From Bacteroidota bacterium (GTDB lineage: Bacteria > Bacteroidota > Bacteroidia > Bacteroidales > ML635J-15), in NCBI GenBank assembly GCA_029558535.1, contig JAKQEK010000253.1:62001-126000 (forward strand): a stretch of 64,000 nt of DNA. The letters are read 5' to 3'. The position numbers were made by a program, and so were the translations under genes. This document shows positions 1-5,893 of the stretch, piece after piece; position 1 is the first letter of the stretch; every line of letters begins with the position of its first letter. A model generated the notes under the pieces. That model saw only the letters and a program-made list of their open reading frames with translations, was not told the origin of the DNA and searched no databases.

Positions 1-822
1 TATTTTAGAATAAATGCAATAAATACCGGACAGTTCGAAAGAACTTTGATAGTAGCTGATGAGGATTCTTATGTTAGTTATATGGAAGGCTGTACTGCTC
101 CTCAACGAGATGAAAATCAACTGCATGCAGCTATTGTAGAAATTATAGCTTATAAAAATGCTGAAGTAAAGTATTCTACTGTTCAAAATTGGTATCCGGG
201 TAATAAGGAAGGTAAAGGCGGTATATATAATTTTGTCACAAAACGTGCTTTGTGTAAGGGGGATAATTCAAAAGTATCTTGGGCGCAGGTTGAGACAGGA
301 TCGGCGATAACATGGAAATACCCTTCAACAATATTAAAAGGGAATAATTCAGTTTCTGAGTTTTATTCTGTTGCAGTAACAAATAACTTTCAGCAGGCGG
401 ATACCGGTTCTAAAATGATACATATAGGAAAAAATACTTCCAGTACAATTGTTTCAAAAGGAATTTCAGCAGGAAAGAGCAATAATTCATACAGAGGGCT
501 TGTGAAAGTGATGAAAAATGCTGAAAATGCAAGGAATTTTTCACAGTGTGATTCATTGCTGTTGGGTGACAAATGTGGTGCCCACACATTCCCATATATT
601 GAAGTAGATAACGAATCTGCAATTGTAGAACATGAGGCAACGACTTCAAAAATTAGCGAAGACCAGATTTTTTATTGTAATCAGCGTGGCATTTCTACAG
701 AAGATGCAATTAGCCTTATTGTTAACGGATATGCCAAAGAAGTAATTAACAAACTGCCGATGGAATTTGCTGTTGAGGCACAAAAGCTGTTACAGATAAG
801 TCTTGAAGGAAGCGTGGGATAA
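1..822 (+). CDS. sufB: Fe-S cluster assembly scaffold SufB (3' part)
   Basis: SufB is the scaffold subunit of the cytosolic SufBC2D complex that builds iron-sulfur clusters. The reading frame is open from the first base, so the 5' end lies outside the window and about 273 C-terminal residues are visible, a little over half of a usual SufB. The stretch is highly characteristic: TGQFERT, then [16 protein letters not shown], then [22 protein letters not shown] and MIHIGKNT. The stop codon overlaps the ATG of the next gene (TAATG), so the genes are probably translationally coupled. It heads a sufB-unknown-sufC-sufD operon. Confidence 0.97.
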
Positions 823-1346
823 TGGCTGAAAAATATGACATATTACCTTATGTGAGTGAATTGGGCACCGGTCCAGATAAAATGCTTTCTCATCTTGAAA
901 AAGATCCAGCTCTGGTTGATGCTTATGTTGAATATTCGTTGTCTGATAAAGAATTTGCTTGGCGGGCTGCTTGGGTGATTCACCATTATTCTGATACGTA
1001 TCCTGAAAATATTAATAAATATGCAGATAAATATATTAAACTTCTACCAAATCTTAGGCGTGATGGCTATATCCGTGAAGTGTTGAGGATTTTATATAAT
1101 TTGAATCTTAATGAGCCCCAAATTTGCGAAGTTTATGATATTTGCAGTGAGTTTGTTCAGAATAACAAGGTGCAATCTTCGGTAAGAGCAATTGCTTTTC
1201 AGTTTATTATCAAAGTAGCTTCACAATATCCGGAATTACAGAAGGAAATTAAAATAATTTTTGAAAATATTAAAGATTACCTTTCGCCTGGGATTAGAAG
1301 TGGAATGGAAATGAGATTAGAAAATGATTTTAAAATTAAAAAATGA
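822..1346 (+). CDS. helical-repeat (HEAT-like) protein between sufB and sufC
   Basis: Unknown protein of 174 residues with no signal peptide or membrane segment. It is rich in short amphipathic helices spaced like HEAT/ARM repeats (around residues 30-60, 75-100, 115-135 and 140-160), with tryptophans in FAWRAAWVIHHYSD that recall DNA-glycosylase-like or HEAT adaptor folds. Its ATG overlaps the sufB stop and its own end overlaps the region just before sufC, so it is made with the Suf proteins. A role as an assembly or regulatory adaptor for SufBC is inference from position only. No catalytic motif is visible. Confidence 0.8.
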   Translation: MAEKYDILPYVSELGTGPDKMLSHLEKDPALVDAYVEYSLSDKEFAWRAAWVIHHYSDTYPENINKYADKYIKLLPNLRRDGYIREVLRILYNLNLNEPQICEVYDICSEFVQNNKVQSSVRAIAFQFIIKVASQYPELQKEIKIIFENIKDYLSPGIRSGMEMRLENDFKIKK

Positions 1347-1350
1347 TAAT

Positions 1351-2103
1351 ATGTTAGTTATTAAAAACCTGCATGCAGAAATAAATGGTAAAAAAATTCT
1401 TAAGGGTTTAAACCTTGAAGTAAAGCCGGGAGAAATTCATGCAATTATGGGTCCTAATGGTTCAGGAAAATCAACTTTATCAGCAGTTTTGGCAGGTAAG
1501 GAAGATTTTATTGTAACGGAAGGTGAAATTTTTTATCAAGGGAGAAACTTGTTCGATTTAAATGTCGAAGAAAGAGCAAAAGAAGGGATTTTTCTAAGTT
1601 TTCAATATCCGGTTGAAATTCCGGGAGTGAGTATGATTAATTTTATGAAAACTGCTGTTAATGAACAAAGAAAATACAGATCGTTGCCACCAATGAGCTC
1701 AGGAGAATTTCTCAAATATATGCGAGAAATGAAAGATTTGGTAGAACTTAAATCAGACCTTGCAAATCGTTCAGTTAATGAAGGTTTTTCGGGTGGCGAA
1801 AAGAAAAGAAACGAAATTTTTCAAATGGCTATGCTAAAACCTAAACTTGCAATACTTGACGAAACAGATTCAGGTTTAGATATTGATGCTTTAAGGATTG
1901 TAGCTAATGGTGTAAATAAAGTTAAAACAAAAGAAAATTCGGTTATTGTCATAACGCATTATCAAAGATTACTTGAATATATTGTTCCTGATTTCGTTCA
2001 CATTTTATATGATGGTAAAATTGTTAAATCTGCAGGAAAGGAATTAGCTTTTGAGCTTGAAGAAAAAGGTTATAACTGGATTAAGGATGAAATAGGCGAT
2101 TAA
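1351..2103 (+). CDS. sufC: Fe-S cluster assembly ATPase SufC
   Basis: ABC-type ATPase that powers the SufBC2D scaffold. Walker A GPNGSGKST lies at about residues 34-42, the ABC signature FSGGEKKRNE at 146-155 and Walker B LAILDETDSGLD at 166-177; the ETDSGLD ending is typical of SufC rather than of transporters. The start is taken at 1351 (MLVIKNLHAEING), matching the family N-terminus. An in-frame ATG at 1324 would add nine lysine-rich residues that overlap the upstream gene and is less likely. The length of 250 residues is normal. Confidence 0.97.
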   Translation: MLVIKNLHAEINGKKILKGLNLEVKPGEIHAIMGPNGSGKSTLSAVLAGKEDFIVTEGEIFYQGRNLFDLNVEERAKEGIFLSFQYPVEIPGVSMINFMKTAVNEQRKYRSLPPMSSGEFLKYMREMKDLVELKSDLANRSVNEGFSGGEKKRNEIFQMAMLKPKLAILDETDSGLDIDALRIVANGVNKVKTKENSVIVITHYQRLLEYIVPDFVHILYDGKIVKSAGKELAFELEEKGYNWIKDEIGD

Positions 2104-2113
2104 AAAACTTTTT

Positions 2114-3475
2114 ATGGATATAAAAAAAACATTTGAAAAATATATTGATATTTTCGAAAAAAACTTTTCCAATGTCAAACAGCATGAGTCAAGTTCCCTT
2201 TATAAAATTAGAACTGAGGCTTACGAAAAGTTTAAAAAACATGGAATGCCAGACCATAATGACGAAAATTATAAATATGCAGGAATAAGTGAAATTTGTT
2301 CTCAGGATTATGAATTTTCTCTCGATTCGAGAGGTGCAATTGTTGATTTAAACGAGTATTTCCAATGCGAAATTAAAGATTTGGATACTCATATTGCACT
2401 ATTGTCAAATGGAGAATATTACAGCAATAACAAACCAATCGAAAACATTGGCGAAGGAGTTATTATTTGTGGCCTCAATATGGCAATTAATAAATATCCC
2501 GAAATTATTAAAGAATATTACAATCAAAATGCAAGAGAGTACGATGATAGCTTTTCGGAGTTGAATACAATGTTTGCAAAAGATGGTTTATTTATTTATG
2601 TTCCTGAAAATACTAAAATTGATAAGACTATTCAACTAGTTAATTTAATACACGGCTTTGGTAATAAAAACATTTTTAAACGTAATTTAATAATTGTTAG
2701 GAAAAATTCAGAACTTTCCTTAGTAATTTGCGACCATACTTTAAATAATAGTAATAATTTCGTAATAGATGTCACAGAATCTGTTGTATTGGAGAATGCA
2801 AAATTCTGTTATCATAATCTTCAGAAAGAACCAAATAAAACCGGAGTAATAAACTCTCATTTTGTTAAACTAAATAAATATTCAAAATTTGATTCTTATA
2901 TCTTGTCTTTTCATGGAGGAATTATACGAAATAATCTTTTTGTGAAAATGATTGGAGAATTTGCAGAATCAAATTTGTTTGGATTAAATCTTACAGATCG
3001 AGAACAACGTATTGATAATTACACTTTGATAGAACATGATGTGCCAAATTGTTCAAGTAATGAGCTTTATAAGGGCATACTAGACGAACAGGCAAAAGGT
3101 TCTTTTATGGGTAGAATAATTGTAAAACCAAATGCTCAAAAAACTCTTGCTTATCAAACAAATAGGAATATTTGTTTAACTCCGGAAGCCAAAATGAGGA
3201 CTAAACCTCAACTGGAAATTTATGCAGATGATGTTAAATGTAGTCACGGAGCAACGGTTGGACAATTGGACGAAACGGCTTTGTTTTATCTTAAACAAAG
3301 AGGAATAAATGAGAAAGAAGCTAAACTTATGTTAATGTTTGCTTTTGCAAATGATATTTTATTGAAAATTAATATCGTGCCTTTGCGTGAACGTATTGCC
3401 GAACTTATCGACTCAAGGTTAAGAGGAGAGTTTTCGGCATGCGAGCATTGTTTGATGAATTGCAATTCACGTTGA
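2114..3475 (+). CDS. sufD: Fe-S cluster assembly protein SufD
   Basis: Partner of SufB in the SufBC2D scaffold; 453 residues, close to family length. The C-terminal half has the SufB/SufD beta-helix signature, including NRNICLTPEAKMRTKPQLEI and KCSHGATVGQLDETALFYL, where the His of SHGAT is the conserved residue used in cluster formation. It starts ten bases after sufC. Bacteroidota clusters often continue with sufS and sufE; here neither follows, and the next gene is a FeoAB-like permease with its own promoter. The protein ends in a cysteine-containing tail (CEHCLMNC). Confidence 0.95.
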   Translation: MDIKKTFEKYIDIFEKNFSNVKQHESSSLYKIRTEAYEKFKKHGMPDHNDENYKYAGISEICSQDYEFSLDSRGAIVDLNEYFQCEIKDLDTHIALLSNGEYYSNNKPIENIGEGVIICGLNMAINKYPEIIKEYYNQNAREYDDSFSELNTMFAKDGLFIYVPENTKIDKTIQLVNLIHGFGNKNIFKRNLIIVRKNSELSLVICDHTLNNSNNFVIDVTESVVLENAKFCYHNLQKEPNKTGVINSHFVKLNKYSKFDSYILSFHGGIIRNNLFVKMIGEFAESNLFGLNLTDREQRIDNYTLIEHDVPNCSSNELYKGILDEQAKGSFMGRIIVKPNAQKTLAYQTNRNICLTPEAKMRTKPQLEIYADDVKCSHGATVGQLDETALFYLKQRGINEKEAKLMLMFAFANDILLKINIVPLRERIAELIDSRLRGEFSACEHCLMNCNSR

Positions 3476-3494: not shown

Positions 3495-3524
3495 TTGTTT
3501 TTATTTAGATTAAATATAAATTTG
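3495..3524 (+). promoter_or_regulatory. Bacteroidota-type promoter for feoAB
   Basis: TTG at 3495-3497, exactly 19 bases, then TAAATTTG at 3517-3524, which fits the TTG/TAnnTTTG consensus. The ATG of the FeoAB-like gene is 23 bases further on. It suggests that this gene can be transcribed independently of suf. Confidence 0.6.
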
Positions 3525-3547: not shown

Positions 3548-5893
3548 ATGGTAGCAATGCAGGAAATACTACTTAATAAAAAATATGTTATTTCAAAACT
3601 TACGGGTAGGTGGGGAATTCGCAGACGTATAAATGATTTGGGTATAAAACCAGAAAGAAAAATAATTTTTTTAAGAAAAAGCAAATCGAATTCATACACA
3701 TTCAAATTTGATGATTGTAAAAAGAAGAGAAAAATTCCGGAGTCATATTTGAAGTTTATTAAATTAATTGATTATGAAAATCCTGACATTATTAATCTTG
3801 TAAAAGAAGATTTATCTGAAATTAGTGTAGATATTTTTCGTAGTGACATTACTCCTTGTATAAACTTATTTGAAGGTCAGGATAAGTATTCATTTGCTGG
3901 ATTTAATTTCAATGTCACTCATTTGCCTACAGTATCTACAATATATGGAGATGATTATCAAAATAAGAAACTCAGGAATAAAATATTAACTAATTTTCCT
4001 GATATTTTTCTGGGTATTGTTGATTTTGAAAATCTTGAATCAGATTTGTTTTTAGTTACGCAGTTTATGGATATGGATGCAAAAATAGTAATTGCATTAC
4101 GTAACTATGATTCTGAACAAGTCGATAAAAAAGTTGACTTTGATTTACTGAGTAAATTAATAGGAATACCTATTATCATATACCCTGATTGTGAAGGAGA
4201 TTGTAATCAAATTGCTCGTGAAAAGGTTTTAAAAACTATTATAAAAACTCATCAGAATGTTGAACCGTATGTAAGACATGTACATGTTAATTATGGTAGA
4301 GAAGTAGAAAGTTCAATACAAAAACTGATACGTCATTTGAAGCGTCTGCCAAATGAAGATTTTACCATCGCTCCAAGATATTTGGCAATCAATTTATTAG
4401 AAAAAGATTCACTTATATTAAAATTGCATCCACCTTGTGCAGAATGTAAGAGAAAGAAATGCAAAGCGAAAAAAGAAATAGCAAAGCTGGAAAATTTGTA
4501 TAATGAGCATATATTCACTATTGTAAAGAATGCCCGAAAAGCCTATGTTAATGGAGCTGTGTCTGAGATAACGGGTGAAGCAAAAGTAGAATCAGCTTCA
4601 GAAAAACTCGATAAAATTCTTACACACAAAATTTGGGGAATACCTATTTTTATTGCTTTTATGGCTCTTACTTTTTATGCAACTTTTGAGCTTGGAAAAT
4701 ATCCGATGGATTGGCTGGAAAGAGGTGTTTCATGGCTAACAACATATTTAGATGGTATTTTGAAGCCCGGTTTTGTAAAAGATCTTCTGCTTGACGGTGC
4801 AATTGATGGAGTAGGAGGAGTATTAGTGTTCTTGCCAAATATTTTTATTTTGTTTTTCTTTATTGGTTTTCTGGAAAATACAGGATATATGTCTCGGGCA
4901 GCTTTTCTAATGGATAAATATATGCACAAAATCGGATTACACGGAAAATCGTTTATTCCGATGATAATGGGTTTTGGATGTACTGTACCGGCAGTAATGA
5001 GTACCCGTATTCTTGAAAACAGACGCGACAAAATCCTTACTATGATGATTGTTCCTTTTATGTCATGTTCAGCTAGATTGCCTGTATATATTTTAATGAT
5101 TTCTGCTTTTTTTCCGGAAAATCCTGTTTTAATGCTTTTTGGAATTTATTCCTTCGGTATTTTACTCGCTTTGATATTGTCAAAATTTTTTAGCAAAACA
5201 ATCTTGAAACCTCGTGAAATTCCATATATTATGGAGCTTATGCCATATCGTAAACCTACAGCAAAATTATTACTAAATTATACCTGGGACAGAGGAAAAG
5301 AATATTTGAAAAAAATCGGTGGTGTGATTTTAATCGGTTCGGTAATTATATGGCTTTTAGGGTATTTCCCCAAAAATGTTGAATATTCAAAAGATTATGA
5401 TTCTCTTATTGCAACAGCCAAAACCGAAGCCGAAATCAATAGCTTTGAATTGCAAAAATCAAGTGAACATCATCAGAAATCATATATAGGTCAGATAGGT
5501 CACTTTATAGAACCTGTAATGAAACCATTAGGATTTGATTGGAAAATGAGTGTAAGTATTCTTGCTGGTATTGCCGGAAAAGAAATAACAGTGAGTACAA
5601 TGGGCGTTCTTTATCAAGCTGATGATAATGGAAATGGAGGTGCATTAAAAGATAAATTAAGGGCAGAAACTTATACTACGGGACCTAATGCAGGTGAAAA
5701 GGTTTTCGATAAACTTGTCGCTCTTTCATTCATTATGTTTATTTTGATTTATTTTCCTTGTATTGCAGTTATTTCGGCAATTTGGAAAGAATCCTCCCGC
5801 ATTAAATGGGCAATTTTTTCGGCATTTTATACCACAGCATTGGCTTGGGTGGTTTCATTTGCAATTTTTCAAATAGGAAGACTGATTATTTAA
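3548..5893 (+). CDS. feoB: FeoA-FeoB fusion ferrous iron permease with degenerate GTPase domain
   Basis: The protein of 781 residues has an FeoA-like SH3 domain (about 5-75), a FeoB G-domain-like region (about 92-235) and the membrane permease. The permease is well preserved: LENTGYMSRAAFLMD, gate motif GFGCTVPA at 475-482 (usually GFGCNVPA) and PFMSCSARLPVY at 503-514. The GTPase motifs are not. The expected P-loop GNPNxGKTTLF aligns with RSDITPCINLF (98-108), which lacks the glycines and the lysine; DLPG is replaced by HLPT (125-128) and NxxD by NYD. A cysteine cluster CX2CX4C (297, 300, 305) lies in the linker. The frame is intact, so this is not a simple pseudogene. It may be a GTP-independent or differently gated Fe(II)/metal channel; this is inference. 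A canonical feoAB may exist elsewhere. Confidence 0.88.
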   Translation: MVAMQEILLNKKYVISKLTGRWGIRRRINDLGIKPERKIIFLRKSKSNSYTFKFDDCKKKRKIPESYLKFIKLIDYENPDIINLVKEDLSEISVDIFRSDITPCINLFEGQDKYSFAGFNFNVTHLPTVSTIYGDDYQNKKLRNKILTNFPDIFLGIVDFENLESDLFLVTQFMDMDAKIVIALRNYDSEQVDKKVDFDLLSKLIGIPIIIYPDCEGDCNQIAREKVLKTIIKTHQNVEPYVRHVHVNYGREVESSIQKLIRHLKRLPNEDFTIAPRYLAINLLEKDSLILKLHPPCAECKRKKCKAKKEIAKLENLYNEHIFTIVKNARKAYVNGAVSEITGEAKVESASEKLDKILTHKIWGIPIFIAFMALTFYATFELGKYPMDWLERGVSWLTTYLDGILKPGFVKDLLLDGAIDGVGGVLVFLPNIFILFFFIGFLENTGYMSRAAFLMDKYMHKIGLHGKSFIPMIMGFGCTVPAVMSTRILENRRDKILTMMIVPFMSCSARLPVYILMISAFFPENPVLMLFGIYSFGILLALILSKFFSKTILKPREIPYIMELMPYRKPTAKLLLNYTWDRGKEYLKKIGGVILIGSVIIWLLGYFPKNVEYSKDYDSLIATAKTEAEINSFELQKSSEHHQKSYIGQIGHFIEPVMKPLGFDWKMSVSILAGIAGKEITVSTMGVLYQADDNGNGGALKDKLRAETYTTGPNAGEKVFDKLVALSFIMFILIYFPCIAVISAIWKESSRIKWAIFSAFYTTALAWVVSFAIFQIGRLII

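Follow-up and report, generated by a model that had tools for sequence, protein, structure and literature searches.

A FeoB homologue without a GTPase site is maintained in one Bacteroidales family

The coupling of nucleotide hydrolysis to the passage of Fe2+ in FeoB is not yet understood, and hydrolysis is required in the systems characterised so far, according to the literature (FeoB sources, besides the three cited below, are PMC10353542 and PMC11406355). What, then, is a FeoB homologue whose GTPase motifs have gone? The question is raised by a gene in the window analysed here, the whole stretch of 64,000 nucleotides from contig JAKQEK010000253.1 of the Bacteroidota assembly GCA_029558535.1 (Table 1). 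The original prediction, made from the letters of this DNA, had proposed a FeoAB fusion that has lost its GTPase motifs and kept its permease.

Table 1. The feoB homologue, its parts and its upstream neighbours, with coordinates in the window.
Feature	Coordinates	Strand	Remarks
suf genes directly upstream	46..3475	+	SufBD-core gene (sufB end), 174-aa ORF, ABC ATPase (sufC), SufBD gene (sufD)
174-aa ORF between sufB and sufC	822-1346		
Conserved palindrome-like box	3503..3521	+	ATTTAGATTAAATATAAAT; overlaps a Bacteroidota-type -7 element; putative metal-regulator operator
FeoA-FeoB homologue, degenerate G domain	3548..5893	+	781 aa, ATG, uninterrupted frame; Pfam and NCBIfam
Eroded FeoA-like domain, aa 1-76	3548..3775	+	Pfam, column counts
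Pseudo-G domain, aa 88-232	3809..4243	+	Pfam, alignment
Lost G1/P-loop site, aa 98-105	3839..3862	+	RSDITPCI for GNPNxGKT; Cys at the P-loop Lys; alignment
Lost G3 site, aa 125-128	3920..3931	+	HLPT for DLPG; Asp and Gly lost; alignment
Lost G4 site, aa 185-188	4100..4111	+	RNYD for NMxD; Asn lost, Asp kept; alignment
Cytosolic helical domain, aa 233-345	4244..4582	+	Pfam FeoB_Cyto
Cx2Cx4C motif, aa 297-305, in the helical domain	4436..4462	+	17 of 22 P-loop-less, 0 of 75 P-loop-bearing FeoBs
Permease, aa 346-781	4583..5890	+	Two Gate stretches, FeoB_C; Pfam, alignment
Asn444	4877..4879	+	ENTGYM for EDTGYM; Asp in 75 of 75 P-loop-bearing Bacteroidales FeoBs
Thr479	4982..4984	+	GFGCTVPA for GFGCNVPA; Asn in 75 of 75 P-loop-bearing Bacteroidales FeoBs

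The gene product exceeded the cut-off of the NCBIfam feoB model TIGR00437 (428.9 bits against 315.65), in an alignment that starts at profile position 36 of 594. Its membrane part passed the Pfam cut-offs for the two Gate stretches and FeoB_C, and FeoB_Cyto was likewise over its cut-off (44.2 bits against 23.4). FeoB_N was aligned over profile positions 42–140 of 156 only, with the G1 part missing, and FeoA reached 14 bits, under its cut-off of 23; in a deep relative, L169, FeoA scored 24.6 bits over the first 702 residues, slightly above that cut-off. The order FeoA, G, helical, permease and the TIGR00437 assignment are shared with the Bacteroidales FeoAB fusion of the Bacteroides fragilis type, and identity to 51 P-loop-bearing homologues of Bacteroidales type was 37–46% (alignment A2). 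Whereas the B. fragilis NFeoAB hydrolyses GTP slowly, according to the excerpt of PMC8980893, the 781-aa protein has lost G1, G3, the G4 Asn and switch I, and its sub-threshold FeoA also sets it apart from this type. With the gamma-proteobacterial FeoB of E. coli, Vibrio and Pseudomonas it has the Gate domains and conserved membrane cysteines in common (homology model in the excerpt of PMC4847171); NTP hydrolysis is described as essential for uptake in the excerpts on those proteins, whereas the 781-aa protein is without the motifs for hydrolysis. Judged by its motifs, the gene is a homologous variant and not a canonical GTP-gated FeoB transporter, because it lacks the G motifs with which such a transporter binds and hydrolyses nucleotide.

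We call P-loop-less any FeoB homologue without GxxxxGK[ST]. Neither this pattern nor D[LI]PG was present anywhere in the 781-aa protein, and in the alignment to 75 P-loop-bearing sequences none of switch I, G3 DxxG and G4 NxxD was retained, about 19 residues of switch I being missing relative to P-loop-bearing FeoBs. As the rest of the protein offers no P-loop either, and its close relatives, P-loop-less too, have no normal G domain, the predicted absence of GTPase motifs from a FeoB homologue was borne out; such a domain would not be expected to bind nucleotide. Pseudo-GTPases of other families, such as degenerate septins, have likewise lost the function of the nucleotide site within a G-protein fold (excerpt of PMC10731463), although septins are eukaryotic cytoskeletal proteins and not transporters.

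Two peptide patterns only were used to scan named genomes from 84,980 species; they matched 143 stretches, 101 of them confirmed; among the best 80 of these 101 relatives, 25 were P-loop-less and 55 P-loop-bearing. Among 295 genomes of the order, a profile of the P-loop-less N-terminus scored 557–578 bits in our own and in three congeners, and nowhere else did it exceed 180 bits. With P-loop status read from the sequences, the P-loop-less FeoB was found in 27 of 31 genomes of one Bacteroidales family (five genera), as a lineage that spans four genera. The query's group comprises our own genome and ten members of its genus with a close copy (64–86% identity). A rumen group comprises 13 genus members with a copy of about 40% identity, for most of which the record title names a ruminant sample (that of UBA1184 does not); RUG we take to stand for rumen genomes.

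The P-loop-less form was the only FeoB found in 14 of the 31 genomes (our own, G001, G003, G004, G009, G010, G012, G015, G019, G020, G024 and, from three other genera, G317, G320 and G321); eight of the 14 are listed as at least 95% complete, and our own is 88.45% complete. Both forms were present in 12 genomes (G002, G005–G008, G013, G014, G016–G018, G022, G023), and rumen-group G021, 80% complete, had the P-loop-less form alone. G318 and G319 had normal FeoB only, and the family survey found no FeoB of either form in G011. A congener listed as 99% complete, G316, had no P-loop-less copy and a divergent P-loop-bearing FeoB; judging from this genome, it is as if the two forms replace one another. 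The G316 protein (L174) has 712 aa, the motif GNPNVGKS and a well-matching FeoA domain.

On permease columns alone, the P-loop-less sequences formed a single group (FastTree support 1.0, 22 of 97 rows), and the same monophyly was recovered with a UFBoot of 99 in IQ-TREE (19 of 60 rows) and, in a quick tree, with an SH-aLRT of 99 for those 19 rows; the loss thus has a single origin on the tree. The P-loop Lys is replaced by Cys in nine of the 11 non-rumen sequences that have a residue there, and the G4 Asp by Cys in all ten rumen sequences; since the deepest pair, L169 and L081, keeps P-loop remnants (FGNPEILNSVFG in L169), the decay can be traced. In the tree, the rumen group's normal FeoBs fall with those of other Bacteroidales (UFBoot 97), which suggests that this group may have re-acquired a normal FeoB horizontally; an AU test (p 0.15) does not reject their kinship with the remaining normal FeoBs of the family. 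One rumen-group genome (L040; G023 C42) has two normal feoB copies that score equally, in opposite orientations and separated by about 10 kb. A search of the phylum for independent P-loop losses matched 252 of 296 genomes at E ≤ 1e-30, and among the matches listed all start at profile position 1. No title or abstract opening among the literature matches listed reported a P-loop-less FeoB, and the excerpt of an evolutionary study (PMC8749426) mentions none.

Could the gene simply be a pseudogene in decay, or an artefact of assembly? In L060, on the same contig as L012, a single in-frame TAA lies between the FeoA-like and pseudo-G parts, and in L065 the frame is broken near the C-terminus. The TAA of L060 may reflect gene splitting or decay. 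Against decay or error as a general explanation, the P-loop is absent from 25 of the best 80 loci, several of which are cut only by contig ends, and full-length frames are open in many genomes. Selection was estimated as Nei–Gojobori omega for 16 pairs, of which several have dS > 1, so that the figures are rough. The query-group pairs (four of five with usable dS, L061–L066 being saturated) gave 0.06–0.08 for FeoA, 0.05–0.13 for linker plus G, 0.04–0.08 for the helical domain and 0.03–0.07 for the permease. The corresponding ranges were 0.08–0.41, 0.04–0.13, 0–0.08 (one saturated) and 0.06–0.13 in seven rumen pairs, and 0.02–0.09, 0.01–0.04, 0.03–0.05 and 0.02–0.06 in four P-loop-bearing pairs. 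Purifying selection acts on every domain, even on the dead G domain. Linker-plus-G values exceed those of the P-loop-bearing pairs, a sign of relaxed constraint on the G domain; this domain and the permease of the rumen group are less constrained than their counterparts in P-loop-bearing copies, yet far from neutral. With omega well under 1 in every domain, hidden systematic error would be required to rescue an explanation by decay or misassembly, which we regard as barely credible. We conclude that the protein is maintained, as had been proposed, and over four genera.

We then asked how far each domain has kept its conserved positions. The alignment held 75 P-loop-bearing and 22 P-loop-less sequences, ten from the rumen group and 12 others (the query, L059, L060, L061, L062, L064, L066, L067, L068, L069, L081, L169); truncated, broken or near-duplicate sequences (L063, L065, L073, L077, L092) and G-handle copies of the same genes were left out of the count. 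A column was counted when at least 95% conserved among the 75 P-loop-bearing sequences, and as kept when at least 90% of the P-loop-less group retained it. By this measure the 12 non-rumen sequences retain 2 of 18 FeoA, 10 of 41 G, 6 of 11 helical and 87 of 103 permease columns, together with 1 of 8 columns without a query residue (switch I). In the ten rumen sequences the counts are 3 of 18, 11 of 41, 7 of 11 and 67 of 103, with 0 of 8 for switch I. The few FeoA columns kept by the non-rumen sequences, with the low Pfam score, agree with the erosion of FeoA originally described.

The claim of an intact permease held in part. Across all 12 non-rumen sequences, 44 of the 56 fully invariant permease columns are kept; C478, C507, K678 and E679 are invariant and C738 almost so (74-row alignment). 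The query deviates at 5 of the 56, against a median of 0 and a maximum of 4 for single P-loop-bearing sequences left out in turn. Asp444 and Asn479, in contrast, are gone: both are changed in 22 of 22 P-loop-less sequences, and they are the only two of the 56 columns lost by all 22. The rumen group shows a further motif change, from PFMSCSARLPVY to PFLPCAARVPVC or PFLPCAAKIPLC, in ten of ten sequences. That loss of Asp444 and Asn479 is exclusive to P-loop-less FeoBs was weakened by P-loop-bearing proteins of Eubacterium eligens (GCTVPA) and Hymenobacter (EETGYM). Because residues 444 and 479 vary in P-loop-bearing FeoBs outside Bacteroidales, their loss is not attributable to loss of the GTPase alone.

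These two residues bear on what the protein may transport. It could be a metal sensor, a regulator or a carrier of another ion, Fe2+ entering by ZIP, NRAMP or a normal FeoB: with Asp444 and Asn479 replaced, a useful rate of Fe2+ passage would be lost, and the protein would report on or move a different metal. That precisely these two among the 56 invariant columns are lost throughout, and that the rumen group adds its own motif change, would fit such a role, and Mn2+-transporting Feo systems are reported in the excerpt of PMC8749426. Other metal importers were surveyed in the family. NRAMP was found in one of 31 genomes (G003), ABC-3 metal permeases in none of the 31 and FecCD permeases in all 31. 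ZIP was found in 14 of 31, namely 9 of 11 query-group genomes, all three other P-loop-less genera and both genomes with normal FeoB only; it was found in none of the 13 rumen-group genomes and in neither G011 nor G316. The rumen group thus contrasts (0 of 13) with the remaining family genomes (14 of 18). ZIP, NRAMP or a normal FeoB occurs in 25 of the 27 genomes with a P-loop-less gene (exceptions G001 and G021), as a sensor or other-ion carrier would allow. Against this stand the strong constraint on most of the permease, the GCT motif of a P-loop-bearing FeoB and the ZIP of both normal-FeoB-only genomes, which means that ZIP presence does not track GTPase loss. We hold a sensor, regulator or other-ion carrier to be possible though somewhat doubtful.

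Nucleotide energy might also be supplied in trans: the P-loop-less permease would then be gated by a different GTPase or, within a mixed oligomer, by a subunit of normal FeoB. Both forms are encoded in 12 of the 31 genomes and a trimeric FeoB is proposed in the excerpt of PMC4847171; nevertheless, a second FeoB was not found in 14 genomes. Our own genome has no second FeoB above the FeoB cut-off, and its other FeoB_N matches lie in open frames of 198–465 aa, too short for a G domain plus a FeoB permease. These short matches are presumably GTPases of the Der/Era/MnmE type. We consider supply in trans very unlikely. The same survey did not support the suggestion that the protein regulates a canonical FeoAB encoded elsewhere, as no candidate partner was found in our genome (at its listed completeness) or in 13 others; such a role is possible in the 12 genomes with both forms.

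The helical domain carries a feature of its own, the Cx2Cx4C motif, which occurs in 7 of 12 non-rumen sequences, the deep branch L169 included, and in all ten rumen sequences. E. coli FeoC binds a [4Fe-4S] cluster through a Cys motif and is proposed to couple hydrolysis to pore opening (excerpt of PMC8749426). In both cases a cysteine motif is tied to the Feo system; unlike that of FeoC or a FeoB-associated Cys-rich protein, the present motif is built into the FeoB homologue's own helical domain, where it would be a putative metal- or cluster-binding site. The GTP switch might accordingly have given way to a cysteine-based metal, Fe-S or redox switch in the stalk, making an importer gated directly by cytosolic iron status. 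The FeoC precedent makes such a switch within FeoB bold but testable; five of the 22 sequences lack the motif (L062, L064, L067, L068 and partly L081), which is therefore not indispensable, and we rate a cysteine switch as improbable. A separate cysteine cluster, CTDCDSCGLSC and similar, lies in the FeoA–G linker of rumen-group normal FeoBs (L039–L049 and L051; L050 excluded).

Upstream of the gene, the box is close to the pattern ATTTAGA-N5-TCTAAAT, scored over 14 positions; the consensus of the Bacteroidota-type -7 element that it overlaps we take to be TAnnTTTG. Of 14 non-rumen upstream regions, 10 (the query, L059–L063, L065, L066, L081, L169) have a box that matches at 13 of 14 positions and starts 27–45 bp ahead of the ATG, and shorter versions occur in L064 and L069. 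It was absent from L067, L068 and all seven rumen upstream regions scanned. The box is kept despite different preceding genes (suf, rpsB-tsf, others), and the predicted promoter of the gene's own is consistent with this conserved promoter-like region in most close relatives. Among 50 upstream regions of P-loop-bearing feoB genes, related species being counted separately, 12 reached at least 12 of 14 matches (shuffles 0.9%, reversed pattern 0 of 50). A genome-wide regulon was unsupported: 103 sites had at most two mismatches, against 180 for the reversed pattern. Ten sites in our genome had at most one mismatch, namely the gene's own, one before a TonB-receptor gene and eight with no apparent common theme. 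At L187:1501 in our genome, a copy with one mismatch precedes a small His-rich ORF and the gene of a TonB-dependent receptor.

The position behind suf genes, whose names sufB, sufC and sufD we take over from the original prediction, had been read as hinting at iron supply for Fe-S synthesis. sufC and sufD lie directly upstream in 8 of the 11 query-group genomes with readable flanks (our own, L059, L060, L061, L062, L064, L067, L068). The distance from the sufD stop, measured in seven of them, is 72–96 bp in five; in L067 and L068 it is 4 bp, and there the gene resembles the final member of the suf operon. In L063, L065 and L066 it is preceded by two other genes, an rpsB-like one (identified by eye) and EF-Ts. 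No suf gene was found near the gene in L069, L081 and L169, nor in 12 rumen-group loci for which about 6 kb of upstream sequence was covered, nor near FeoB in 82 further loci, 56 from the species scan (including the truncated P-loop-less L092) and 26 from the order search, these with flanks of roughly 1.5 kb; a FeoB control query matched 82 of 82, so the database worked. The suf link thus stands for 8 of 11 close relatives and does not hold across the lineage, and suf as a universal partner is ruled out. The ORF between sufB and sufC has no Pfam match and has a relative at the same place in L060, L061, L062, L067 and L068.

Taken together, the product is, with a probability of roughly 0.5, a FeoB-derived permease of the inner membrane that carries a divalent metal, in all likelihood Fe2+, and has ceased to act as a nucleotide switch. 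We favour GTP-free permeation because the protein is kept, its nucleotide site is broken and in 14 genomes the searches found no FeoB besides it; the scarcity of NRAMP and ABC-3 permeases, the retained permease columns, low omega, monophyly, the box and the apparent replacement in G316 point the same way. Such transport contradicts characterised systems, in which E. coli FeoB variants in G4 (D123N) and G2 (T37A) do not support Fe2+ uptake (excerpt of PMC8980893). Against it also count the other metal routes (ZIP in 9 of 11 query-group genomes, NRAMP in its place in G003, FecCD throughout), the changed Asp444 and Asn479, the loosened G domain, the gaps in box distribution and its lack of genome-wide enrichment, and the incompleteness of our own genome. 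Under GTP-free permeation, an ancestor within this Bacteroidales family would have lost the P-loop, switch I, G3 and G4 from its G domain, which would have become a nucleotide-free structural or regulatory module joining the FeoA-like domain, the helical stalk and the membrane part. Fe2+ would pass down its electrochemical gradient with no GTP cycle, and control would be mainly transcriptional, through the conserved box over the promoter as a putative site of metal regulation, and perhaps also through the stalk cysteine site.

This lineage is a natural experiment that can separate the G domain as motor or switch from the G domain as scaffold. A maintained FeoB without a GTP switch questions the rule that the importer needs GTP. 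If our reading is true, the label 'feoB', as assigned by the standard model TIGR00437, would cover a mechanistically different transporter.
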